Below, piece by piece: positions 7,112 through 21,925 of a DNA stretch of 34,978 bases. This stretch comes from Verrucomicrobiota bacterium (GTDB lineage Bacteria > Verrucomicrobiota > Verrucomicrobiia > Limisphaerales > JADLHS01). The notes beneath the pieces were generated by a model. It did no database searches and was not told the origin of the DNA. It was given only the letters and a program-made list of their open reading frames with translations. The stretch lies in the NCBI GenBank assembly GCA_025350905.1, contig JANXWY010000280.1, positions 1 to 34,978 on the forward strand, read 5' to 3'. Position 1 is the first letter of the stretch; every line of letters starts with the position of its first letter. Both the position numbers and the translations under genes were made by a program.

Positions 7112-8371
7112 ATGAAGTTTAATAAATGGACATTGGGCTTGGCAGCCGTCGGAGCGGTCAGCCTGACGTCAGTTGCTCAGGCAGAGGAGAAGATGAACGT
7201 CCTGCAGACGGCCATGACCTCCACCACTATCAGTGGTTACGTCGACACCTCAATGCAGTGGAACTTCGGGACGGGTGACAATCACCTGCCCACTTACGCG
7301 TTCGGCGGGTCGAGCAAGGCCGATGGATTCAACTTGAACGTCGTGCAACTCTCCATCGCCAAGCCGTTGGACGAGAGCGAGTGGGCGGCGGGTTATCGCG
7401 CTGACTTATGGTTTGGTCCAGATGCCGCCACGCTGGCGACGACTTCGCCTTTCGGTACTACTAGTGACGTTGCCATTCGTCAGGCCTATGTCGCGCTACG
7501 TACCCCGGTCGGCAACGGCATTGATTGGAAAATCGGCGTGTTTGACGGCATCATTGGTTATGAAACTCTGACTGATGGCGACAATCCGAACATGACCCGT
7601 TCTTACGGATTTACCATCGAGCCAAAGACGCAAACTGGTTTGCTGGGTACTTACCGGTTCTGCGACGTGGTTACGGCTTCCTTTGGAGTAGCGGATACGG
7701 TCGGACCGACCATTAACGCGCGCTCATTCAATGGTAATCCGGCCACGGCCAACTATTCGGAATCTGAAAAAACCTACACCGGCTCACTGGCGTTTACCGC
7801 CCCGAGCAATATGGGTTGGCTCGCCGGCTCTACTTTGTATGCGGGCTTTATTGCCGGTTTCTCTCCGACATCTACGCCCAATACGACGCCCTTTGATCCA
7901 ACAACGAGCGGTGGTATTCAGAACAATTATTACATCGGCACAACATTGGCCACTCCGGTGGCCGGTTTGAAGGTCGGAGCCGCCATTGATTATGCTCACA
8001 TTCGAGGTGGCAGCGGCAATGTTCCTGGCGTTGTTCCTATTTTGCCCGCTGTAGGTGATCAAAATGTAAATAACGCCTATGCTTACGACCTCTATGTGTC
8101 GTACCAAGCTACGGAAAAAATGAGCCTGCATGGTCGCGCGGAGTACTACCGCGCGACAGTCGTTGGCGGCAGCGCCGCCGCGCAAAAGGGGAACAACGAA
8201 GTCACCGCTTTGACCGCCACCATTCAATACGACTTGTGGCAGAACGTGCTCAGCCGCTTGGAAATTCGCTGGGATCACTCCGAAGACCCTCAATACGGTA
8301 ACGCAACGCTCCCCGCCAACCGCCTGAAGAACGCCACCATGATTGCGGCGAACTTCATCTACAAGTTCTAA
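7112..8371 (+). CDS. Outer-membrane beta-barrel porin (BBP2/OmpL-like)
   Basis: The 419-residue protein has a classic signal peptide (MKFNKWTLGLAAVGAVSLTSVAQA, cleavage after AQA). The rest is alternating polar/hydrophobic strands, for example TISGYVDTSMQWNFG near the mature start, and it ends in IAANFIYKF with the terminal Phe that the Bam machinery recognises. This is the pattern of the putative beta-barrel porin-2 family, common in Verrucomicrobiota and Planctomycetota, and it implies diffusion of small solutes across the outer membrane. The start at 7112 is chosen over the ATG at 7091 because GGAGG at 7100-7104 is ideally spaced for it. The good ribosome site, leader hairpins and strong terminator suggest high, monocistronic expression. 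Substrate unknown. Confidence 0.88.
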   Translation: MKFNKWTLGLAAVGAVSLTSVAQAEEKMNVLQTAMTSTTISGYVDTSMQWNFGTGDNHLPTYAFGGSSKADGFNLNVVQLSIAKPLDESEWAAGYRADLWFGPDAATLATTSPFGTTSDVAIRQAYVALRTPVGNGIDWKIGVFDGIIGYETLTDGDNPNMTRSYGFTIEPKTQTGLLGTYRFCDVVTASFGVADTVGPTINARSFNGNPATANYSESEKTYTGSLAFTAPSNMGWLAGSTLYAGFIAGFSPTSTPNTTPFDPTTSGGIQNNYYIGTTLATPVAGLKVGAAIDYAHIRGGSGNVPGVVPILPAVGDQNVNNAYAYDLYVSYQATEKMSLHGRAEYYRATVVGGSAAAQKGNNEVTALTATIQYDLWQNVLSRLEIRWDHSEDPQYGNATLPANRLKNATMIAANFIYKF

Positions 8372-8388
8372 TCCGAATCGAAATTCAG

Positions 8389-8420
8389 AAACCCCTTCCA
8401 AGAAACTGGAAGGGGTTTTT
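8389..8420 (+). terminator. Rho-independent terminator of the porin gene
   Basis: AAACCCCTTCC (8389-8399) pairs perfectly with GGAAGGGGTTT (8408-8418) over an eight-base loop. The T run continues to 8420 and on into TTTATTT-like sequence. It starts 17 bases after the porin stop. Confidence 0.92.
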
Positions 8421-8660
8421 ATTTGCTGGATTGGTTCAGTCCGGTCTTGTTTCAATTTACTGTCCCACCCGGCTTATCGCTGGTCCCAGTGCCTTCTTTC
8501 GTTCACTGCGGAGCGATTGAAATTCGTTGGGTTAGAGGCTTATTCGCATCTTCGGCGCATTCCACCGCCGTTTTTTTGGTTCATCCATCGAAACACTACT
8601 ATCCGGTTAAGTTTTTGCTGACAGCGATTCCGATGCGGTAAGACCGGCGACTTCTCGCTA

Positions 8661-8936
8661 TCGCTTCTGATTGATCAGATACCAGAGGGTCTGGGAACCA
8701 CAAGCGGAGCGGCAAATGCGTGTCGGTGAAGCGCGAGCCCGCAGTCACGGTGAAATCCTGGCCACAGACCGCGCAATAATAGAAGGGGCTTTCATTACCC
8801 AGACTTGGGCTGGCGCACAGCGTGGACAACGCGGCCCGCTGGACCAGCTAATGGATTCCCAATAGGCACGGCAAGCGGCGTTATGGTTCAAGCGGTCATT
8901 GAATTCCAACACGGTTTGAGGGTAATCGGCCCTGCC
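8661..8936 (-). pseudogene. Decayed IS1595/ISXO2-family transposase, N-terminal part with two frameshifts
   Basis: Reading leftward from about 8936, frame one gives DYPQTVLEFNDRLN, NHNAACRAYWESISW, then GPRCPRC. This matches the ISXO2-like start (D-Y-P-x-T-L-L-E-F) and the first half of its zinc ribbon. After 8817 the match moves to a second frame, SPFYYCAVCGQDFTV and RFTDTHLPLRLWF, the second Cys pair and the following helix. At 8694 it returns to the first frame as QTLWYLINQK, then meets TAG at 8658-8660. The DDE catalytic domain is absent, so the gene is dead. The rest of the 8421-9132 spacer holds no other gene I can support; GGGGTCAGGGG just outside (8955-8965) may belong to the element's end. 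Confidence 0.8.
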
Positions 8937-9132
8937 TACTACGACAACCGATTGGGGTCAGGGGAATCAAATGCACAGACCTATATTTTTTCTACCAGCG
9001 CGGGAATATTTTAAAAATAATGTCCCCCGGTCGCCCTGAGCTACAGCCCGGTAGGCAGGCGGGCACTATCCGCTCTGTTCGTGACAAGTCCCCTAGAGTG
9101 AGCCATTTTCTCTGCACAGTTGGTATATTGAT

Positions 9133-11049
9133 ATGATAAACTTGCGTCTCAGACTTTGCCTGATTCTTGCGGTGATCCTGCCCTGCTGGTCGCCGGCCCA
9201 ACAATCGGATACCAATTCGCCGGCCCGGTTGCTGACCGGCGCCCTGAAGCGAATCACCCAGATTTTCGAGACCCGGAACAGTGAAGAGCCGCGCACGTTC
9301 ACGGCCACCCTGAAAATCCTCAAAGGGGATGGCTTGCCGGAGGAGTTGGTCGGTCTCGAATTGCGCCTGGCATTGCAGGCGCCAGATCACCTGCGCCTCG
9401 CCACCAAATGGGATGGTCAAGATATCGAAGTCGGGCGGGACCAGCAGGACCTTTGGGTCCGCGTGCCCGCCAAGAAATTCTGCCTCGTCGGCTCGCCCGA
9501 CGTGCCGCAGTTTTCCGCCGCGCCGGAACGGAAAGACTCCACCCGGTTAGGTCCGATCAAACTCCCGATCGCGTCGGACCAACTCGTGATGCTGCCGATC
9601 TTACTGCGGACGGAAGCTTCGCCCAATGAGGACGTCGGCGGCGTACCGTGCCGCGTTTTCAAGGCGACTCCGACGCGCGAAACTATCGATGCTTTCAACG
9701 TGCCGAATGCCACCGTTAAGCTCGCGGTGCGGGAAAGCGACCTTTTGCCTCTGCGCGTCAGCTACCGCGAAGGCAAAACTGATGTAGAAATTGAAGTCGT
9801 CAACCCCCTGTTCGAAGCGGCCTGGCCGGCCGCGCGTTGGAAACTCGAAGCAGGCGCAGGCGACAAAATTGAAACGGTGGCGCAATCGCATTTGACGCGC
9901 TTCCTCACTGTGGGGCTGGGCATGTTGATGAGCGACAAGCTCCCAACGCTCGGACCCTCCACCGGTGAGCGCCGCATTTTGGCCCGGGAAGGCGGCGGTC
10001 GCCTGGAATTGGTTGACGGCACGCGCGTCCTATTCCTCAAAGGTACGCCCGAGGAAATGGGTCGGCAGCACGGCACGCTGATGAAGAAGGAAGTCCGCCA
10101 CCTGGTGGACCAGATGCTCTACGGCGTCGGCGTGGGGAGTTCGTTCGACAAGGGCAGTTGGTTCTTTGGTGAGCTCGAGTCCGCCCAGCAACGGGTCGCG
10201 CCGTTCACGGACGAGCGTTATTTCCGCGAGATGGATGCGCTGGCCAGCGCCGCCGGACTCCCGCGCGAAGAAGTGCGCATCGCGAATTTCTTTCCCGAGC
10301 TGTTTCATTGCAGCGGCTTTGCGTTGTTTGGCAAAGCCACCGTGGGGGGCAAAATGTACCACGGACGCATTCTCGATTATTTGCGCGGCATGGGTTTGGA
10401 GCAGAATGCCACCGTCATTGTATTTCAACCCGAACAAGGCAATGCCTGGGTCAATATTGGCTACGCCGGCTTCGTTGGCTCCGTGACCGCCATGAATGAA
10501 AAGCACATTGCCATTGGCGAGATGGGCGGACGCGGGGAAGGCCATTGGGACGGAAAGCCAATGGCGCAACTCGTACGCGAAGTCATGGAAAAAGCCAACA
10601 CGCTTGAGGAAGCGATAGCGATCATGCGCAAAGGGCCGCGCACTTGCGAATATTACTACGTGATCTCGGATGCGAAATCGAAGCGCGCGGTCGGGATCGC
10701 CGCCACCCTGGACAAATTCGAGACGATCTGGCCGGGCGAGAGCAATCCGCTCCTGCCGCACGGCATGGTAGACACCGTTCTGCTGTCTGCCGGCGACCGT
10801 TATGAAGAGCTGGCGAAGCGGGTGAAGGCCGGTTACGGAAAATTCGATGCCCAGAGCGCGCGCGATCTCATGAAGCGGCCGGTTTGTATGACTTCCAACA
10901 TCCACTCGGTATTGTTCGAACCGGAAACCCTCGATTTCTGGGTTGCCAATGCCGACTCGGAGAATCCCGCCGCCCACACCCGCTATACGCACTACAACCT
11001 CGGCAAATTATTGCGGCCGGAAAAGTCAGCTGAGGCAGCGGCACGTTAG
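9133..11049 (+). CDS. Exported C45-family (Ntn) acyltransferase/hydrolase with an N-terminal LolA-like domain
   Basis: The 638-residue product has a signal peptide (MINLRLRLCLILAVILPCWSPAQQ). Residues about 45-250 resemble the beta-sheet fold of outer-membrane lipoprotein-sorting/DUF2092 proteins: repeated strands such as FTATLKILKGDGL and RLATKWDGQDIEVG. From about 285 begins a C45 domain (acyl-CoA:6-aminopenicillanate acyltransferase family): KGTPEEMGRQHG, then FHCSGFALFGKATVGGKMYHGRILDY. In that family the Cys (here Cys393) becomes the N-terminal nucleophile after self-cleavage. CMTSNIHSVLFEP near the end is the usual distal block. The family acts on amide or ester bonds; the substrate here cannot be told. 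It stands alone, and the fusion of the two domains is the odd point. Confidence 0.8.
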   Translation: MINLRLRLCLILAVILPCWSPAQQSDTNSPARLLTGALKRITQIFETRNSEEPRTFTATLKILKGDGLPEELVGLELRLALQAPDHLRLATKWDGQDIEVGRDQQDLWVRVPAKKFCLVGSPDVPQFSAAPERKDSTRLGPIKLPIASDQLVMLPILLRTEASPNEDVGGVPCRVFKATPTRETIDAFNVPNATVKLAVRESDLLPLRVSYREGKTDVEIEVVNPLFEAAWPAARWKLEAGAGDKIETVAQSHLTRFLTVGLGMLMSDKLPTLGPSTGERRILAREGGGRLELVDGTRVLFLKGTPEEMGRQHGTLMKKEVRHLVDQMLYGVGVGSSFDKGSWFFGELESAQQRVAPFTDERYFREMDALASAAGLPREEVRIANFFPELFHCSGFALFGKATVGGKMYHGRILDYLRGMGLEQNATVIVFQPEQGNAWVNIGYAGFVGSVTAMNEKHIAIGEMGGRGEGHWDGKPMAQLVREVMEKANTLEEAIAIMRKGPRTCEYYYVISDAKSKRAVGIAATLDKFETIWPGESNPLLPHGMVDTVLLSAGDRYEELAKRVKAGYGKFDAQSARDLMKRPVCMTSNIHSVLFEPETLDFWVANADSENPAAHTRYTHYNLGKLLRPEKSAEAAAR

Positions 11050-11157
11050 GACGAACGCCGAAGTTTTAAATTGTCTCAGTGGCGGTCGCCAGGCGCGCTG
11101 TTTAGTGTGGCGATATCAGTAACCGACCATTTCAGACGCATCTGGCGCGCTCAACAG

Positions 11158-11280
11158 AGGACTTTCCCGAGCGCATAAATATCCGCGCGGATCGTGCCAT
11201 TCGCCCTCGGGGGCCAGGAAGCCTACCTTGCCAACCATCGACCGCCCCTCTGGAGTGTCAGTCACCAACCCGATGTCCGC
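11158..11280 (-). pseudogene. Duplicated, frameshifted fragment of the Ser/Thr kinase gene
   Basis: These 123 bp match 15921-16042 inside the intact kinase gene at roughly 90% identity, with a handful of substitutions and one extra base around 11199-11203. On the minus strand the copy reads ADIGLVTDTPEGRSMVG, then GFLAPEG, the kinase activation segment with the same unusual DIG motif, after which the frame is lost. No kinase sequence is seen outside the block, so it is a gene remnant. The surrounding spacer (11050-11328) holds nothing else I recognise. Confidence 0.85.
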
Positions 11281-11328
11281 CCGTCCTGCGTGGCGGCGTC
11301 AGTATTTTAGCAGTTGGCAGTTTGAGGT

Positions 11329-12225
11329 TCATTTCAATGACGTCGTCCGCTCTTGAATCCAAGTCACATCCGGATTGGGCGGAAGGTAATTCGCGGCGAA
11401 GGTGGTCCACGACGTGCGAGCGTCGAGCCATTTCTTGATTTCACAGCGTCCGTCCGCAAAGGCCATGCTGCAGCCAAAATTATGGAAACTACCCGGACCG
11501 TCGATAAAACGGCTGCTTACCATCGTCACCTGAAAGCCGCCGTCACTGACACTAATCGGATTTTCGTCCAAGAGCACGAAGAGCATTGCTGGTGACGGCC
11601 TGACAATGGATGTTGTTTTGCCGAAAGTAAACCAAGGGCCATTTCTCGTGTTGCTATGAGTACCATCCAGCCAGGGACCATCAACCGGGAGTTGACCACC
11701 CTTCGAGTAAGGATCGGTGCCGACGGCCCCATTCATCGAAACGTTCCTCGCGGCTGACACTACTTGGCCCAGCGTGGAGGCGGCGGTTGACCGGCCGGTT
11801 CGAGTGTCGCTTGGGCACCTGAAGAAAGTGATATTGGTTGCAAGATAAGGTGCCAGCAGGGATCGAGACAGGTCTTTGAGCAAGTCACCGTCGAACTCGC
11901 TCGATTGCCCAATTCCAGCCGCGCCAGGGCACCAATTATAGCCCGGCCTAGTGTTGCCATCGTCCGGGTTGGGTGGAAACAGGTCATGGTAGTCATGGGT
12001 GTACATCTGCATGGCGCGCATGAGATTTCGGAGATTATTCAGGCATTGAAAGGATTGGTCGCTGACCCGGCTCCGGGCCATTGCGGGCATCAACAACGCT
12101 CCGAGAAACACGATCACGCCGCACACCACCAGCAAATCAACCTGGCTGAAGGCGCTGCCCGCTTCCTGACGCAAGCTTGCGAGTTTTGTTTTTGGTTCCC
12201 TTGTCAAATGAGGTGATTGGTTCAT
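11329..12225 (-). CDS. DUF1559-like prepilin-type secreted protein
   Basis: The 298-residue protein has a class III-like leader. A basic/polar stretch of about 24 residues is followed by AFSQVDLLVVCGVIVFLGALLMPA, where the usual G/F-T-L-I-E-L is replaced by A/F-S-Q-V-D-L. It then has a long globular part. The block FHNFGCSMAFADGRCEIKKW near residue 255 is the H-x9-DG signature of the DUF1559 group, abundant in Planctomycetota and Verrucomicrobiota. By family it should be processed like a pseudopilin and lie at the inner membrane or cell surface. It starts 21 bp after the propeller gene stop, so the two are probably one operon. Asp for the +5 Glu and Ala at -1 may alter processing. Confidence 0.82.
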   Translation of the reverse strand: MNQSPHLTREPKTKLASLRQEAGSAFSQVDLLVVCGVIVFLGALLMPAMARSRVSDQSFQCLNNLRNLMRAMQMYTHDYHDLFPPNPDDGNTRPGYNWCPGAAGIGQSSEFDGDLLKDLSRSLLAPYLATNITFFRCPSDTRTGRSTAASTLGQVVSAARNVSMNGAVGTDPYSKGGQLPVDGPWLDGTHSNTRNGPWFTFGKTTSIVRPSPAMLFVLLDENPISVSDGGFQVTMVSSRFIDGPGSFHNFGCSMAFADGRCEIKKWLDARTSWTTFAANYLPPNPDVTWIQERTTSLK

Positions 12226-12246
12226 AGAGCTTTGAAACGATGGGGG

Positions 12247-15200
12247 TCACTGCGCCACGACGCGATAAAACCGCTGACCGTTGGCTGGGGGTAAGTCATT
12301 CAGGTAGCCCTGAGTCCCGATGAGCGTCACGCTCCCGCTCGCGTCCTGCCAATCTGGGTCCGCCAGGGTGTTCTTGAATTGCGCGCGGTAAGCTTTGCCC
12401 GGGACCACCGGCCAGGAAATCCACACCCCCAGACTGGGGTCGGCGCAGGACACAATCGCGGTTCGGAACCCGGGTATTTGGCCGGTGGCGAGAAGGCTGA
12501 CGCTGAACAGGTCACTGCTGCGATTGAAATCCAGCGTGGCGATGTCGGGCGCCCAGCTCTCGAATACAACTGTGGTCCCGTCACCGCTGAAGACGGGGTC
12601 AAGGGCGCGGTTGCCTGCACTACCGTTCCGCGACCCGCTGACGCTCAAGAGCGTCGTCGAGCCAGTGATACGGTCCCAAAGGAAGACATCCGGCACGCCA
12701 TTCGTGTCGCCCGGGAAGAGGTTTGTGGCGGCGCTACGGTAGGCGACGAAACGGCCATCCACACTGATGTCAGGCGAATCGGAGGGGCCGTTCGCGGAAC
12801 TATTGAGTGCCCAACTCACCAGGCGGTTTGACGAGGTCTGGAAGTCATAAAGGTAAATGTCGGCGAGACTGTTCGTATCACCCGCCACCTTCGCGCTGAC
12901 GGTCTGGTAGGCGAGGAAGCGGCCGTCCGCGCTGAAGCGGGGGGAACGGGCGGCGCCAGTCGTGAGTTGTGAATTGGTAACCGCCGTCCGATCCATGATG
13001 TTAAGCTGCGAGTTGCCTGACAAATAGGCGAGCCGATTACCGTCCGGGCTGATGGTCAGGCCGGTCAGCGTGGCGGGCACACTTGCGGTGTAAATCCGCG
13101 TGTGCGATTGCGAGTCCCAGACAGACACACTGTTACCAGCCGAGTTGCCCAACGCGACGTAGCGGCCATTAGGCGTCATCGCGGCAGGAAATGTCGCCGA
13201 CCCGGTTGTGTTGGAAGAAACAGGGTAAGTGACGTTTCCTGACAAATCCCGCCAGAAGATATTGTCAACGCCGGAACCGAACGCACCGACGGCGAGGTCG
13301 CTGGCGGTGCTATGGAAAAGTACGGCGTGCCCGTCGGAACTGATGATGGGGGCCGACGACGCGCGATTGCCGCTGAACCCATTCTGGTTAACGCTCACCA
13401 GCAGCGTAGTGCCCGCCAGCAGGTCGCGGACGAATACATCCGAAACCCGGTTTGTGTCCCCGGCGACGAGATTGGTGGCAGCGCTCGTGAACGCGACGTA
13501 GCGGCCATCGGCGCTGATGGCGGGTTCGGTGGAAACCCCGTTGCCGGGTGCGGCCCCCGCCGAATCCACGCTGACGAGCACATTCGTGCCAAGCAGCAAA
13601 TCGCGAACGAATACGTCCCGGTAGCCGTTGGTGTCGTTCGCCACTAGATTATCCGCCTCGCTGGAAAACGCTACGAATCGGCCATCCGCGTTTACGGACA
13701 ACAGGGACAGCGAGCTCGGGCCACTGGGAGTGACTGAAGGCAGTGCCGGGTCATGCTTGGAGATCAATTCGGTCGCAAACGTCGTCAGGTTTCGTGCGAA
13801 TATGTCGAAGGACTTGTTTGAATCATCTGACACCAGGTTGCCGTCGTAAGCTTCGAATGCGACTAGCCGCCCATCGTCACTCAACCGGGGCAGCGTCACC
13901 GATGTGACCCCCGAGCCGACACCATTGGTACCGGCATCCACCAACGTCGTGACGCCCGCCTGCAAGTCGTGCACGTAGAGATGAAACTCACCCGCGAGCG
14001 AGTTGGTGACGAGGTTGATCGCCGTACTGTTGAACGCGACGAAGTGCCCGTCAGGCGTGAGGGCAGGCCAGGCACAGATTGAATTGGTCCCCACCGCGCC
14101 GTTCAGGTCCGCGCTGGCCATGGTGCTCGCGCCGGACAGTCCGTCCCAGACGTAAACGTGCGAGGCGCCGCCGGCGCCGCCGCTCGTGTCAGCCAGATAC
14201 GCAATGAACCGCCCGTCGGGCGTCATCGTCAGCGTCCGCAGATCCTCGACGGCTCCAGTCGGTACGACCGCATTTGTATCCACGATGTCGGTGAAGCCGC
14301 TGTCGAGGTTGTAACGCAGGATTATCCCGTTGGTCGGCGACGATGCGGCACTGACTTCATACGCCAAGAACTTACCGTCTGCGCTGATGGCGTGCCCAAA
14401 GGACACCGCGTTCGTTCTGTTCTGAGAGGACTGGAGTGCCGTGCGAGCGTAGCTACTCGCCCAGACCGTGGCGCCAACGCTCAGATCGCGGACATAAATG
14501 TCGCCGCCGGCTGGAACTCCCGGCACGAGATTCGTTGCAGTACTGAAAAATGCCACGTAGCGACCGTCCGGCGTGAGCTCCGGCGCTTCCGAGCTTCGCT
14601 TGGCAGTCGCGGCACCGACGCTGACGAGCGTCGTCGTACCAGCCTGTAAGTCGCGAAGGAAGACGTCTGGAATCCCGTTCGTGTCGTCAGGTACAAGGTT
14701 GTTGGCCGCGCTGACGAAGGTTACAAAGCGTCCGTCCGGGGTCATGACGGCACTGCGGGAGTCACCGTTTCCGGCGACGGCGTTTGTGGCGACGCTCACG
14801 AGAAGGTTGGTGCCGACGATGAGGTCGCGCACCAAGACATCGGGTGCGCCGTTCGTGTCATCTGCGACCAGGTCAGTCGCACTCGTTTCAATCAAGGCAT
14901 AACGTCCATTCGTTGAAATTCCCGCTGGGATCGTATCGCCATTCCCACCGGCTTGCCTGCCAAGATTGATACTCACCAGGGTGGTCATCGCGTTACTTCG
15001 GTCGCACAAAAAGGTGTTCAACCGCGGAGGAAAGCAAAATTGCAGCGCGATGTTGCTCGCAACTAGGTTTTCAGCCGAACTCGCAAAAAGAACGAAGCGC
15101 CCATCGGGGCTGATCAGCGGGATTGCGGAGTCACCATTTCCGCCGGTGGCCGGATTGCGGCTCGGGTCGGCAGCGGTGACCCGTTCCGCGGCCTGAAGGC

Positions 15201-15273
15201 AAGCCACCAGCGAGAGACAACACAGCGACACGAGTACGAGCGCCCGTTTCCAATTCGAGCGGGGAGCATCCAT
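12247..15273 (-). CDS. Exported giant PD40/TolB-like beta-propeller protein (about 16 blades)
   Basis: With a start at 15273 the product has 1008 residues and opens with a signal sequence (MDAPRSNWKRALVLVSLCCL..., cleavage near LQAAE). About 16 tandem units of 45-65 residues follow. Their consensus is S/T-x-D-G-R-[FY]-V-A-[FY]-x-S-x-A-x-N-L-V-x-x-D-T-N-G-x-x-D-V-F-V-R-D-L-x-x-G-T-T-x-L-V-S-V, the PD40/WD40-like type; DTNG-D loops may bind calcium. Blades 5, 6, 12 and 13 are the most divergent. A C-terminal beta domain (last ~80 residues, ending NGQRFYRVVAQ) is of a type common at the end of verrucomicrobial surface proteins. Sixteen blades suggest two propellers. An upstream start at 15414 would bury the signal peptide 47 residues in, so I reject it. 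No enzyme motif is seen; a binding or scaffold role is likely. Confidence 0.85.
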   Translation of the reverse strand: MDAPRSNWKRALVLVSLCCLSLVACLQAAERVTAADPSRNPATGGNGDSAIPLISPDGRFVLFASSAENLVASNIALQFCFPPRLNTFLCDRSNAMTTLVSINLGRQAGGNGDTIPAGISTNGRYALIETSATDLVADDTNGAPDVLVRDLIVGTNLLVSVATNAVAGNGDSRSAVMTPDGRFVTFVSAANNLVPDDTNGIPDVFLRDLQAGTTTLVSVGAATAKRSSEAPELTPDGRYVAFFSTATNLVPGVPAGGDIYVRDLSVGATVWASSYARTALQSSQNRTNAVSFGHAISADGKFLAYEVSAASSPTNGIILRYNLDSGFTDIVDTNAVVPTGAVEDLRTLTMTPDGRFIAYLADTSGGAGGASHVYVWDGLSGASTMASADLNGAVGTNSICAWPALTPDGHFVAFNSTAINLVTNSLAGEFHLYVHDLQAGVTTLVDAGTNGVGSGVTSVTLPRLSDDGRLVAFEAYDGNLVSDDSNKSFDIFARNLTTFATELISKHDPALPSVTPSGPSSLSLLSVNADGRFVAFSSEADNLVANDTNGYRDVFVRDLLLGTNVLVSVDSAGAAPGNGVSTEPAISADGRYVAFTSAATNLVAGDTNRVSDVFVRDLLAGTTLLVSVNQNGFSGNRASSAPIISSDGHAVLFHSTASDLAVGAFGSGVDNIFWRDLSGNVTYPVSSNTTGSATFPAAMTPNGRYVALGNSAGNSVSVWDSQSHTRIYTASVPATLTGLTISPDGNRLAYLSGNSQLNIMDRTAVTNSQLTTGAARSPRFSADGRFLAYQTVSAKVAGDTNSLADIYLYDFQTSSNRLVSWALNSSANGPSDSPDISVDGRFVAYRSAATNLFPGDTNGVPDVFLWDRITGSTTLLSVSGSRNGSAGNRALDPVFSGDGTTVVFESWAPDIATLDFNRSSDLFSVSLLATGQIPGFRTAIVSCADPSLGVWISWPVVPGKAYRAQFKNTLADPDWQDASGSVTLIGTQGYLNDLPPANGQRFYRVVAQ

Positions 15274-15595
15274 GCCTTGGTAACAGCTGTGGTGGACTGT
15301 ATCAGAACGACCAGTCCCGCGCTTGGAGGCACCGGCTGAACCCTGCACCGCGGCTTTATCGCCATCGGACCTCATAGGCTTCTGCTTTCTTAGTTTGCCC
15401 AGGTAAGAGACCATCAGACCTTGCCCCTGCCCAGTAATTTTCTCATCACACTGTTCTTCCTGCTGATTCAGCTAAAGCCGGCCACTCAGCAACATCCGTC
15501 CCCCATAGCTCGCAAACGGATTGGCGATTCTTTCAAAAATCTTGCGCAGGGTAGTCTGGCTGACCTTGATGGCTTGCAACTGCAGCTCAAGAAAA
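15274..15595 (-). other. Spacer between kinase gene and propeller gene
   Basis: The 322 bp carry no supported gene. The frame of the propeller gene is open back to 15414 but without a sensible start. A 60-codon frame at 15472-15654 overlaps the kinase 3' end and has no recognisable content. A promoter for the propeller-prepilin pair, possibly one read by the cassette's own ECF sigma factor, is expected here. No repeat or hairpin stands out. Confidence 0.3.
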
Positions 15596-16546
15596 TCAGT
15601 CACGATGCAGAATGAGCCAGAGGAGCCGCCAGATTGCGCCGCCGCTAACTCCAAGCGCGACCAGCGTGCCGATGACCGCTAACACCTTCGTCAGCATTCC
15701 TAGGTGCTCCTGGTTGCGCAGGACCGTCTTGTCGAACTCAAACGCCAGGAGTGTGCGCATCATTTCTTCGGCGGTTTGGTACCGTTGCCAGGCTTTCGCG
15801 CGGCAAGCCTTGAGAATGATTCGGTTCAATATCAGGAAGTCCCGGGTTTCTGCGGGGCGACCGAGCATTTCGGGCAGCGCTGGATACTCGTTCCGATCTT
15901 TGCCCGTGCTGATCTCGTAAAGGACTTTCCCGAGCGCATAAATGTCCGCGCGGATCGTGCCCGAGCCCTCGGGGGCCAGGAAGCCTTCTGTGCCGACCAT
16001 CGACCGCCCCTCCGGAGTGTCAGTCACCAGCCCGATGTCCGCGAGCTTGGGTATGCCGCTGACAAAAATGATGTTCGCCGGTTTGATGTCGCGGTGAAAC
16101 AAGCCGTGCTTGTGCAGGAAGCCCAGCGCCGAGGCGATGGCCGTACCGAGCCGGACACATTCGGCGACCGGGAGCCGCTCCAGCCGGGCTCGGTCCTGTT
16201 CCAAAGTCCGCGGCGAGTAGGTCAGTGGATGAATGGTTGGGCCGGTGACGACATCATCGGCCAGTTCCATCACGCAGTAGCAGTATCCAGCGGTTTCGTT
16301 GCGCCCGACCTGCAATATGTCCACTAGTCCATCATGCAGCCGGGAGACGGGTTCGAACTTTAGAATGCCGTTGAACTCGCGCTCAAAATGTCGCCGGTGC
16401 TGGAATCGCTGTTCTTGAACGATTTTGACGGCGCGGTAGGAACCGAGAGCATTACGGGCGAGCCAGACCTGCCCGCTGCTGCCGCGCCCGATGGGGCGAA
16501 TCAGTTCGTGATCTGGAACCAGTGGAACTGTCGCCATTTCCGTCAC
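15596..16546 (-). CDS. Serine/threonine protein kinase with C-terminal membrane anchor
   Basis: The 316-residue Hanks-type kinase has the glycine loop IGRGSSGQVW (20-28), the ATP lysine in YRAVKIV (Lys41), the catalytic loop FHRDIKPANIIF (Asp153, Lys155, Asn158), LADIGLVTDT (170-172 in place of DFG) and GFLAPEG (APE 191-193). A hydrophobic segment near 286-312 would hold it in the inner membrane with the kinase domain in the cytoplasm and almost nothing outside. It phosphorylates Ser/Thr; the co-transcribed sigma factor is the obvious candidate substrate. The sigma gene ends 3 bp before the GTG start at 16546; an ATG at 16537 is an alternative. DIG for DFG is conserved in the fragment at 11158-11280, so it is unlikely to be an error. 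Confidence 0.92.
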   Translation of the reverse strand: MTEMATVPLVPDHELIRPIGRGSSGQVWLARNALGSYRAVKIVQEQRFQHRRHFEREFNGILKFEPVSRLHDGLVDILQVGRNETAGYCYCVMELADDVVTGPTIHPLTYSPRTLEQDRARLERLPVAECVRLGTAIASALGFLHKHGLFHRDIKPANIIFVSGIPKLADIGLVTDTPEGRSMVGTEGFLAPEGSGTIRADIYALGKVLYEISTGKDRNEYPALPEMLGRPAETRDFLILNRIILKACRAKAWQRYQTAEEMMRTLLAFEFDKTVLRNQEHLGMLTKVLAVIGTLVALGVSGGAIWRLLWLILHRD

Positions 16547-16549
16547 ATC

Positions 16550-17200
16550 TTAATTCAACCCGTCCCATTGCTTTTCGAGCATCCGAACTTCCTTTTTAAG
16601 CAACGCGAGGATCCGGTGTTTGGCGAGATATACCTGGGCGATATTGACTTCCAGGGTTTGGGCAATCTTGTTCGCTGGCCATTCTCGGATCACACTCAAA
16701 TCGAAGATTTGATAATGCTCCTCCTTGACGCGGCGCTTGACGCGTTCCAGCCCGGCTTTCATCAGATTTGATTGCCACTCAGCTTCCCAGACGCCTTCAA
16801 GGCCGGCGTCCCCTGAGCTTTGCATTTCAGCAAGCTCCATCAGCTTGGCATCATCATCTGACGAGACACTTTCCCCCGACCGGTTGGGCGCACGTTTCCT
16901 TAACTGATCGGCAATCCGCCACCGGGTGAGATTTCGAAGCCAGCCTTTGAACGAGCCGAACTGGCGGTCGCGTTTGAACTTGTTGATGTCATTGGCTACG
17001 CAAATAACCGTTTCCTGAACCACCTCCTCGGCCTCCGTTTCCGTCAAACCAGACTTGCGGGCTATGGAATAAATCAACCGCCAGTAAGTATCAAAGAAAA
17101 CCCTCCAACTCTCCTGATCGTTCCAGTTTTCTAACCGACTCAACAGGCTGTAACGAGTCGGAACCAAGTCGTCCGTCTGTAATTTTGCTGCCTCGTTCAT
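16550..17200 (-). CDS. ECF-type sigma-70 family RNA polymerase sigma factor
   Basis: The 216-residue protein has region 2 (about 20-90: FFDTYWRLIYSIARKSGLTE, TEAEEVVQETVICVA, GSFKGWLRNLTRWRIADQLRKR), a spacer of about 55 residues, and region 4 (about 155-205: HYQIFDLSVIREWPANKIAQ with its helix-turn-helix, ending AKHRILALLKKEV). Such factors direct RNA polymerase to a small regulon. I take the ATG at 17200; a GTG at 17215 in the same frame is possible. No anti-sigma factor adjoins; instead the next gene, 3 bp on, encodes a kinase, the arrangement known for kinase-associated ECF groups in the Planctomycetes-Verrucomicrobia superphylum. TGAGT-GGGCT-ACTCA (17204-17218) just ahead of the start is a possible operator. 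Confidence 0.9.
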   Translation of the reverse strand: MNEAAKLQTDDLVPTRYSLLSRLENWNDQESWRVFFDTYWRLIYSIARKSGLTETEAEEVVQETVICVANDINKFKRDRQFGSFKGWLRNLTRWRIADQLRKRAPNRSGESVSSDDDAKLMELAEMQSSGDAGLEGVWEAEWQSNLMKAGLERVKRRVKEEHYQIFDLSVIREWPANKIAQTLEVNIAQVYLAKHRILALLKKEVRMLEKQWDGLN

Positions 17201-17315
17201 ATCTGAGTAGCCCACTCAATCCTAATCAATCCCGATGGGTTGAAACGCAATTGCGAATTTTAGGCTGAATGGCCTACATAATTCCCTTTTTTCGGCTTGG
17301 CGGTATCGTGATTAA

Positions 17316-17591
17316 CTAGTCAGGGAAACTACGCGAGCCCTCAGCCAAAGCCATCCAAAAGGGTGAAAGTTCCATGCAGTCCACGTGATATGCACGCCCG
17401 AGGAAATCCGCCACCCGACAGCCAGGCGGCCCTGAAATCTGCACCTTGAACCATTCGCCCTGATGCGGGTCGACACAAAGGCTGCGATGCGGAGGGGCGT
17501 GGTCATGTATTCTTCCGGGCTTTCCGGTTGACTCCAGCATACTTGGCTTTTGCAAGCAAGCGAATTGAGCCGCCGCAGGATCATTCATCAT
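17316..17591 (-). CDS. Possible small hypothetical gene in the sigma/hydrolase spacer
   Basis: A 91-codon minus-strand frame encodes a product with GEWFKVQISGPPGCRVADFL and a Cys/His-containing tail (GRAYHVDCMELSPFWMALAE). The composition looks more protein-like than the other frames here, but I recognise no family and see no ribosome site. It may be a gene remnant. The rest of the 17201-17729 interval must hold promoters for the sigma factor and for the plus-strand hydrolases; nothing specific is visible. Confidence 0.2.
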   Translation of the reverse strand: MMNDPAAAQFACLQKPSMLESTGKPGRIHDHAPPHRSLCVDPHQGEWFKVQISGPPGCRVADFLGRAYHVDCMELSPFWMALAEGSRSFPD

Positions 17592-17729
17592 CCCAAGATG
17601 GAGCAGACGGTTTTGCTTCCGAGCCTTGCGACCAGCACGAGCCTGCCATCCCTTGAATCATCCGCTTCGTCTCCCTCCCGGTCATTTTTGATTCTTGCGT
17701 TGGTCAGCAAGACTTGGATGATGCACGCG

Positions 17730-18647
17730 ATGAAATTGCCAAGGCTGCTTCGCGGCCTGCTCAAATTTGTGGCGGCCGTGCTGCTCGCCATCCTCGTTTG
17801 TGCTGCTTCAGTCTGGATTTACTTCCACCCCAGTTTCGAACGCACGGCCGGGGTGGTCTACGGGCAGCGACATGGCCAGAATTTGACCTTGGACATTGTC
17901 CGGCCCGCCAAGCCCAACGGTCTTGGGATCGCGCTCATGGTCAGCGGTGGATGGAAGTCAGGCACGAACTCGTTCCGTCCCTGGATGGTGGCGCCGCTGT
18001 TGCGCCGGGGCTACACGGTCTTCGCGGTGTGTCACATTTCGCAACCGGAAGCGACCATCATGGAAATCACCGAGGATGTTAACCGAGCGGTGCGCTACAT
18101 CCGGCATAACGCCGGCCAGTACGGCGTGGATCCTAGTCGGTTGGGCGTTACGGGAGGCAGCGCCGGCGGTCACCTCAGTCTCTTGCTCGCCACCCGCGGT
18201 GGCCCGGGCCCGACCGGCACCGCTGACCCCGTGGACGGCGAAAGCAGCGCGGTCCAGGCCGTCGCCATTTTTTATCCGGTCACTGACTTGATCGACCTCG
18301 GCAACTCCACCGAGAATCTGCACGATGGAGGGCCGCCGAAAAGTTTCGTGCAGGGCTTTGGGCCCAATGCCACGAACCTCGCGGTTTGGAAAGTCATCGG
18401 CCACGAGTTGTCGCCGATCTTTTATGTAAACTCCAATTTGCCGCCGACGTTGATCTATCACGGCGACGCCGACACGCTCGTGCCGCTGGATCAATCGCTG
18501 CGCTTTCAAGCCGAGGCCCGCAAGTTGGGTCGCACTGTGGAAGTGGTGGTCCACCCGGGCGGACAGCACGGTTGGTTGAGCATGCTGTGGGACATCCGGC
18601 AATTTGCAAACTGGTTTGATCTATATTTGCGGCCGCCAAACAAATAG
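17730..18647 (+). CDS. Membrane-anchored alpha/beta hydrolase (esterase-like), first of a tandem pair
   Basis: The 305-residue protein begins with a basic N-terminus and one long hydrophobic segment (about 8-32), with no clear cleavage site, so it is probably anchored and faces the periplasm. The hydrolase fold follows: MVSGGW as the oxyanion-strand region, nucleophile elbow GGSAGGH (Ser144), HGDADTLVP carrying the likely acid Asp, and HPGGQHGW with the catalytic His. This motif set is that of the BD-FAE/acetyl-esterase branch, often active on acetylated or feruloylated sugars. I chose the ATG at 17730; ATGs at 17718 and 17721 are equally possible, and the frame's first ATG at 17550 adds an unlikely 60-residue leader. 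It ends 24 bp before its paralogue. Confidence 0.82.
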   Translation: MKLPRLLRGLLKFVAAVLLAILVCAASVWIYFHPSFERTAGVVYGQRHGQNLTLDIVRPAKPNGLGIALMVSGGWKSGTNSFRPWMVAPLLRRGYTVFAVCHISQPEATIMEITEDVNRAVRYIRHNAGQYGVDPSRLGVTGGSAGGHLSLLLATRGGPGPTGTADPVDGESSAVQAVAIFYPVTDLIDLGNSTENLHDGGPPKSFVQGFGPNATNLAVWKVIGHELSPIFYVNSNLPPTLIYHGDADTLVPLDQSLRFQAEARKLGRTVEVVVHPGGQHGWLSMLWDIRQFANWFDLYLRPPNK

Positions 18648-18671: not shown

Positions 18672-19601
18672 ATGAAAATCATCAATTGTGCAGCGGTCTT
18701 CGGTTGGTTCACTTTCGCAGGATCCTTGGGCGGCGTGGCCCAGGATTCTGCTTCCCTGCCCTATGAGCAAAAGCAGGACGTGGTTTATGGCGAAGTGCAT
18801 GGCACGGGGTTGCTGATGGATGTCTTCACGCCCAAGGAAAAAGCCAACGGGCTGGCTATCGTGGACGTGGCCAGCGGCGCGTGGCATTCCGACCGCGGGA
18901 AAATTCGCGACCACACGCTGGCGCAGTTGTATCGGATTTTCTGCACGCACGGTTATACGGTTTTTGCGATTCGTCCCGGTTCGCGCACCCGCTACACCGG
19001 TTTGGAGATGGCAACACACGTGCGGATGGGAATCCGGTACGTGAAACTACATGCGGCAGATTATAAGATTGATCCCGAACGGCTCGGGCTCACCGGCGCT
19101 TCGGCCGGGGGACACCTGGCAACGCTGGTGGCCGTCACGCCGGAGGCAGGCCAACCCGAAGCGAATCAACCCTTGCAGCGCCTGGGCACCCAAGTCCGCG
19201 CCGCAGCCGTTTTCTTTCCGCCCACGGACTTCCTCGATTGGAACGGCAAGCCCGCCGATTCCCAGATGTTGGCCGATCTATTTTTTCTGGGTGGGATCAA
19301 AGGTCATTCGGAAGCCGAGATTCAGGAACGCGCCCGGCAACTTTCCCCAGCCCAACTGGTCACCGCGCCCCCAATTCCGTTTCTATTGATCCACGGCGAC
19401 GCGGATCCATTGGTGCCGCTGCAGCAGTCGCAGAAAATGGTCGCGGCCCTCAAAGCGGCCGGCGGCTCCGCTGAACTGATCGTAAAAAAGGGCGGCGGCC
19501 ATCCGTGGCTGACCCTCCCCGAGGAGGTTAAGATCATGGCCGACTGGTTTGATCAACAGCTTCCGGAAACCAAACCGAATCCGCCGGTGGTTCCGAAGTG
19601 A
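18672..19601 (+). CDS. Exported alpha/beta hydrolase (esterase-like), second of a tandem pair
   Basis: The 309-residue product has an N-terminal signal peptide (MKIINCAAVFGWFTFAGSLGGVAQ, cleavage near VAQ). Hydrolase features follow: TGASAGGH with the nucleophile Ser144, IHGDADPLVPLQQS with the acid Asp, and GGGHPW with the His. Overall plan and motif spacing match the gene just upstream (Ser144 in both as called), so the pair arose by tandem duplication, although identity outside the motifs is modest. One has an anchor and the other a cleavable signal, so they may act at different places in the envelope on similar substrates. The 24-bp gap implies one transcript. It converges on the PqaA-like gene with 42 bp between stops. 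Confidence 0.85.
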   Translation: MKIINCAAVFGWFTFAGSLGGVAQDSASLPYEQKQDVVYGEVHGTGLLMDVFTPKEKANGLAIVDVASGAWHSDRGKIRDHTLAQLYRIFCTHGYTVFAIRPGSRTRYTGLEMATHVRMGIRYVKLHAADYKIDPERLGLTGASAGGHLATLVAVTPEAGQPEANQPLQRLGTQVRAAAVFFPPTDFLDWNGKPADSQMLADLFFLGGIKGHSEAEIQERARQLSPAQLVTAPPIPFLLIHGDADPLVPLQQSQKMVAALKAAGGSAELIVKKGGGHPWLTLPEEVKIMADWFDQQLPETKPNPPVVPK

Positions 19602-21760: not shown

Positions 21761-21925
21761 ACCCACCGCCGTTGAATTAAGCGTTTGGACGCAGCAACAC
21801 CAAGCCGTTCTTAATCTTAATCCTTCTCATAATCATAATCTTCCCGCGGCGCAGAGATGAAGAGCAAGATTACGATTAAGATTAAGAACCCGGCACCAGC
21901 GCCTAATTCAACGGCAGTGGGGATG
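21761..21925. repeat. Imperfect palindromic element, about 165 bp (MITE- or REP-like)
   Basis: The outer arms carry CCGTTGAATTA (21769-21779) and its complement TAATTCAACGG (21904-21914), with the match extending imperfectly a few bases outward. The inner arms are GTTCTTAATCTTAATC (21807-21822) and its complement GATTAAGATTAAGAAC (21874-21889). The centre holds further ATAATC/GATTA units. No coding frame spans it. The nested inverted repeats suggest a non-autonomous element or a cruciform-forming repeat between the small Cys-rich gene and the GH95 gene; whether it occurs elsewhere in the genome cannot be seen here. Confidence 0.6.

Follow-up and report, generated by a model that had tools for sequence, protein, structure and literature searches.

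A 123-bp fragment of a Ser/Thr protein kinase gene lies next to a four-gene cassette in the window, the whole stretch of 34,978 nucleotides that was analyzed from a Limisphaerales (Verrucomicrobiota) genome. Judged from its sequence, the fragment is a dead copy of part of the coding sequence of the cassette's own kinase. It is significantly similar to a working gene elsewhere in the genome, its reading frame is disrupted, and essential residues are lost, as in a kinase-derived pseudogene fragment. Broken partial gene duplicates are ordinary in genomes, and the fragment is an ordinary case of one. We hold the reading of the fragment as the remnant of a second kinase copy, trimmed by deletion, to be evenly balanced between right and wrong. 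The features discussed are collected in Table 1.

Table 1. Coordinates of the features in the window and, in the last row, of sites on other contigs of the genome
Feature	Position	Strand	Evidence or remark
Inserted block: cassette with the kinase fragment near its left end	11050..17677		Absent from two congeners
Gene for a C45-type autoproteolytic acyltransferase/hydrolase, flanking the insertion on the left	9133..11049	+	NF040521 above cutoff
Unmatched 108 bp from the acyltransferase stop codon to the fragment	11050..11157		No significant fold; flanks at background
Kinase fragment	11158..11280	-	91% identity to 15921-16042; frameshift and conserved GTEG lost
Prepilin-like protein (DUF1559/SBP_bac_10), encoded at the end of the cassette	11329..12225	-	PF07596, E value of 1.5e-6
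TolB/PD40-type beta-propeller protein, 1055 aa	12247..15414	-	PF07676, E value of 4.4e-27
Intact Ser/Thr protein kinase, 316 aa, with C-terminal hydrophobic stretch	15596..16546	-	PF00069, E value of 2.4e-23
Source segment: activation segment of the intact kinase, DIG onwards	15921..16042	-	Alignment to the fragment
ECF-type sigma factor, 221 aa	16550..17215	-	PF04542; TIGR02937 above cutoff
Alpha/beta-hydrolase (BD-FAE) esterase gene, right flank of the insertion	17694..18647	+	Conserved part starts at 17694
Sites of extra residues in other kinases	C365 4233-4311; C13 2626-2708; C436 5024-5106; C371 551-599; C469 11699-11771

The Fragment and Its Source

BLASTN of the region against the window aligns 11158-11280 with 15921-16042 on the same strand, with one gap and 112 of 123 positions identical (91%). 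This is the single significant nonself match (E value of 1.6e-42 to 2e-44). A chance match is excluded by the E value of about 1e-42 and by a shuffle control, in which a 29-base probe shows no chance match in 100 shuffles. The local alignment ends exactly at the bounds of the fragment, and an extension of 50 bp per side gains nothing. Relative to the kinase, the fragment carries 10 substitutions and 1 inserted base, the latter being the 1-nucleotide indel. The flanks at 11050-11157 and 11281-11328 align with the cassette, the kinase, and the upstream gene at the level of shuffled sequence. The family HMM confines the kinase similarity to the 123 bp, where the indel divides it between two frames, and neither the flank alignments nor the kinase-family HMM detects longer degraded kinase homology beside the fragment. 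The first-pass annotation had described a frameshifted, sharply bounded 123-bp copy with one indel, about ten substitutions, and surroundings that are not kinase-like; the counts, the abrupt ends, and the background-level flanks bear this out, with an identity far above background in the formal alignment. The position that it gave, the far end of the cassette, is right in that the fragment lies past the prepilin gene, but 108 bp of unmatched sequence separate the fragment from position 11049, where the stop codon of the neighboring gene ends. Going along the minus strand, one meets the sigma factor, kinase, propeller protein, prepilin-like protein, 48 bp, fragment, 108 bp, and the convergent acyltransferase stop codon.

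Read on the minus strand, the fragment corresponds to kinase codons 169 to 209, from ADIG to GKVL. Its translation is ADIGLVTDTPEGRSMVG, followed by the changes T>K and E>V, the residues GFLAPEG, the frameshift, and GTIRADIYALGKV. Four isolated transitions (CTG>TTG, CCG>CCA, GTC>GTT, and GAC>GAT) are all silent in the kinase frame. Two clusters of changes are found besides: ACAGAA>AAGGTA, which results in T>K and E>V, and TCG>GAAT, which shifts the frame. The GT of the GTEG motif, which 44 homologues from the order retain almost without exception, is lost in the fragment. Because the frame is broken and this near-invariant pair is missing, the fragment cannot encode a kinase segment.

The local kinase is identified as the source of the fragment since the remaining kinases of the genome reach only 68 to 74% DNA identity to the kinase gene, compared to 91% for the fragment. 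The residues TDTPEGRSM of the window kinase are private to it (0 of the 44 homologues) and are kept in the fragment. A preserved DIG variant had been taken as a further sign of descent in the first pass. DIG is indeed kept in the copy, but it is the norm of the kinase family rather than a copy-specific mark: most of the 44 homologues read ADIG, so the motif is of no help in proving the source.

The genome search for other kinase copies shows two copies of the fragment sequence in the genome, with the next-best kinases at no more than 74% DNA identity. Among 95 relatives, only weak matches and nothing comparable to the fragment are found, and plasmids and phages show no match. These results rule out a widespread or dispersed repeat unrelated to kinases, the alternative that the first-pass annotation had named. 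An isolated kinase scrap of high identity is absent from 42 other stretches around kinase loci, which show tandem whole kinase domains instead.

The Cassette as a Probable Insertion

The 6.6-kb block that contains the cassette and the fragment is absent from two congeners (G001:C55 and G004:C58). These two loci with an empty site are among the 44 loci obtained from an acyltransferase scan of the named genomes; a direct kinase scan of the same named genomes recovered no relatives. In both congeners, an acyltransferase gene with 83 to 85% identity is followed by the esterase gene within tens of bases, and the right-hand sequence of the window resumes just past the position of the congeners' acyltransferase stop codon. 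The window thus has a stretch from 11050 to about 17677 that the congeners lack, with the right border accurate to about 10 to 20 bp. At four more distant loci, esterase homologues with 54 to 61% identity also adjoin the acyltransferase. Together with the adjacency of the flanking genes in both congeners, this makes insertion more likely than loss. The esterase probably does not start at the TTG at 17550, as its conserved part begins at 17694. The adjacent BD-FAE-type esterase genes at 17550-18647 and 18672-19601 are about 36% identical and form an old tandem pair that is kept in the congeners.

No terminal inverted repeats or target-site duplication are detected for the 6.6-kb block, and its end regions have no common 8-mers, direct or inverted. 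As the right border is placed only to within about 10 to 20 bp, a short target duplication may be present. Transposon-carried insertion of the block is not supported, as no mobile-element ends were found.

The nearest orthologous cassette, and the only one found with all four genes, is G010:C45 from another genus of the same family, with identities of 57% for the sigma factor, 62% for the kinase, 53% for the propeller protein, and 31% for the prepilin-like protein. It contains one closely related kinase, with nothing kinase-like after the prepilin gene and no fragment. None of five congeners contains a close relative of the window kinase. Homologues of the prepilin-like protein are found in 10 of 12 genomes of the family. 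The propeller protein gene contains internal repeats at 12640-12735, 13568-13688, and 14617-14738, which are 69 to 74% identical.

Origin of the Fragment

We infer that a longer second kinase copy existed and was trimmed by deletion. In the remnant reading, a second kinase without a sigma gene of its own would once have followed the prepilin gene in the same orientation, as in the tandem arrays of relatives. It would have been kept similar to the first copy for some time and would then have been broken, with everything deleted except 123 bp.

The 42 stretches around kinase loci were also searched for tandem kinase pairs. Contig C172 of the same genome (914-2108 versus 7596-8784) and the locus G010:C34 of a family relative (8151-9124 versus 12651-13621) each contain a pair with about 90% DNA identity on the same strand. 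This identity spans roughly 1 to 1.2 kb, which is essentially the kinase domain only; the genes are of the kinase-sensor type, and the whole proteins are 55% (C172) and 40% (G010:C34) identical. Within both pairs, the identity of codons for conserved residues declines mid-domain from about 0.9 to about 0.55, at an amino acid identity of at least 0.95, and this drop looks like the mark of gene conversion rather than of protein selection. A sigma gene precedes only the first kinase at both loci, which makes a second same-strand kinase downstream without a sigma gene a known arrangement, and the fragment has the position and orientation of such a second kinase. The first pass proposed the loss of a second cassette. 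This is plausible, but an intact second kinase at the site of the fragment is found in no relative: the two congeners are without the cassette, and G010:C45 is without the fragment. Loss of a sigma-less second kinase fits better than loss of a whole cassette since the existing tandem kinases have no second sigma gene.

The differences between the two copies also argue for a remnant. All four isolated differences are synonymous, with a chance probability of 0.006 to 0.03 depending on the mutation model used, in a post hoc test on four sites with the two change clusters set aside. Such a pattern would be expected had coding selection acted on both copies during part of their divergence. Which of the two copies changed can be told only in part: GTC to GTT seems to have arisen in the fragment, and some of the others may lie in the kinase. 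The same-residue codons of the fragment show an identity of 0.87, within the range of the converted tracts of the living tandem pairs (0.78 to 0.95). Against a remnant stands the absence of any trace of the remaining second kinase or of a second sigma, TolB, or prepilin gene beside the fragment, so that two flanking deletions must be assumed. The G010:C45 cassette with its single closely related kinase counts against it as well.

The main competing origin is a one-step templated insertion, against which we lean somewhat. Here, repair of a break near the left end of the cassette, possibly when the cassette was inserted or later, would have led the polymerase to copy 123 bp of the kinase 4.6 kb away, followed by neutral decay. 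A single event suffices, both borders are sharp with flanks unrelated to anything in the cassette, 108 bp separate the fragment from the end of a lineage-specific insertion of 6.6 kb, and the changes fall in two tight clusters. However, all-synonymous isolated differences are not predicted by such an event, and no short filler from other parts of the cassette is found in the neighboring 108 and 48 bp.

An assembly artifact of the metagenome bin is very unlikely. The genome is a draft metagenome-assembled genome of 489 contigs, but both flanks of the locus run on into genes syntenic to those of the congeners, and with 9% of positions differing between the copies, neither is a misplaced duplicate of the other.

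That a short tract was placed at the site of the fragment by classical gene conversion is highly unlikely. Conversion confined to the kinase domain is indicated by the drop in codon identity at two other tandem loci, C172 in the same genome and G010:C34 in a family relative. Short-fragment conversion, suggested in the first pass, cannot have made the piece at its present site, as conversion needs a homologous recipient and the present flanks have no kinase homology; it is conceivable only before the loss of a second copy.

A functional element (a small RNA, a decoy, or the template or variable repeat of a diversity-generating retroelement that diversifies the kinase) is barely credible: the fragment is a same-strand direct repeat just downstream of the operon, but the window has no Rfam match, the fragment folds no better than shuffles (z of 1.59), the differing positions are mixed bases in both copies rather than adenine only, and no conservation is seen in relatives. 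Promoter- and terminator-like sites are not above chance, and a structured RNA, a regulatory element, and a retroelement repeat were thus rejected. No function can be proposed for the fragment from these analyses.

Comparison with Known Systems

The fragment resembles bacterial truncated pseudogenes that arise by tandem duplication and deletion in being a partial, frameshifted, direct-orientation copy near an intact parent and in being unconserved. In contrast to these, it is very short (123 bp) and is not accompanied by a recognizable rest of a second copy. Templated (filler) insertions occur at repair junctions, and the fragment is like them in being a short segment copied from a nearby donor with sharp ends. 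It differs in that its divergence looks partly coding-like, with no microhomology established at the junctions. Literature searches on partial duplications and templated insertions yielded nothing that bears on this case in particular.

In Planctomycetota, Ser/Thr kinase families with WD40 and TPR sensors are expanded, and within-species duplication and/or recombination has been inferred (PMC11032199). These families share with the locus described here the kinase expansion, tandem copies, beta-propeller partners, and ECF sigma neighbors. Unlike them, the present locus belongs to the Limisphaerales of the Verrucomicrobiota, its kinase and propeller are separate genes, and a scrap of a copy remains.

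Taken alone, the fragment is a small genomic scar. It does show that the cassette, which two congeners lack, has already been subject to internal duplication or copying. Together with the two loci with homogenized kinase domains, the fragment hints at how large bacterial kinase families retain a common catalytic domain and change their sensors. A broader reading, tentative and in our judgment unlikely, is that sigma/kinase loci of the Limisphaerales undergo repeated conversion among tandem copies that is limited to the kinase domain, in which case the scrap may be a by-product of this turnover at a recently acquired cassette. If this holds, such conversion would preserve a single catalytic domain as the sensor parts drift apart. 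The main text of PMC11032199 does not mention gene conversion.

Palindromic Elements

Several kinases of the genome contain 16 to 28 extra residues at one place, near residue 100-108 of P0001. In several of them, the DNA at this place forms an imperfect palindrome about 80 bp long (CGGAGGGACGAGCTC...), which is present elsewhere too; a 15-mer of the palindrome has 19 sites, compared to 2 for a control. These palindromes resemble the Rickettsia palindromic elements inserted in frame into genes. The window itself contains an 83-bp imperfect palindrome at 21807-21889, which is 72% self-complementary and has TTCTTAATCTTAATC arms.
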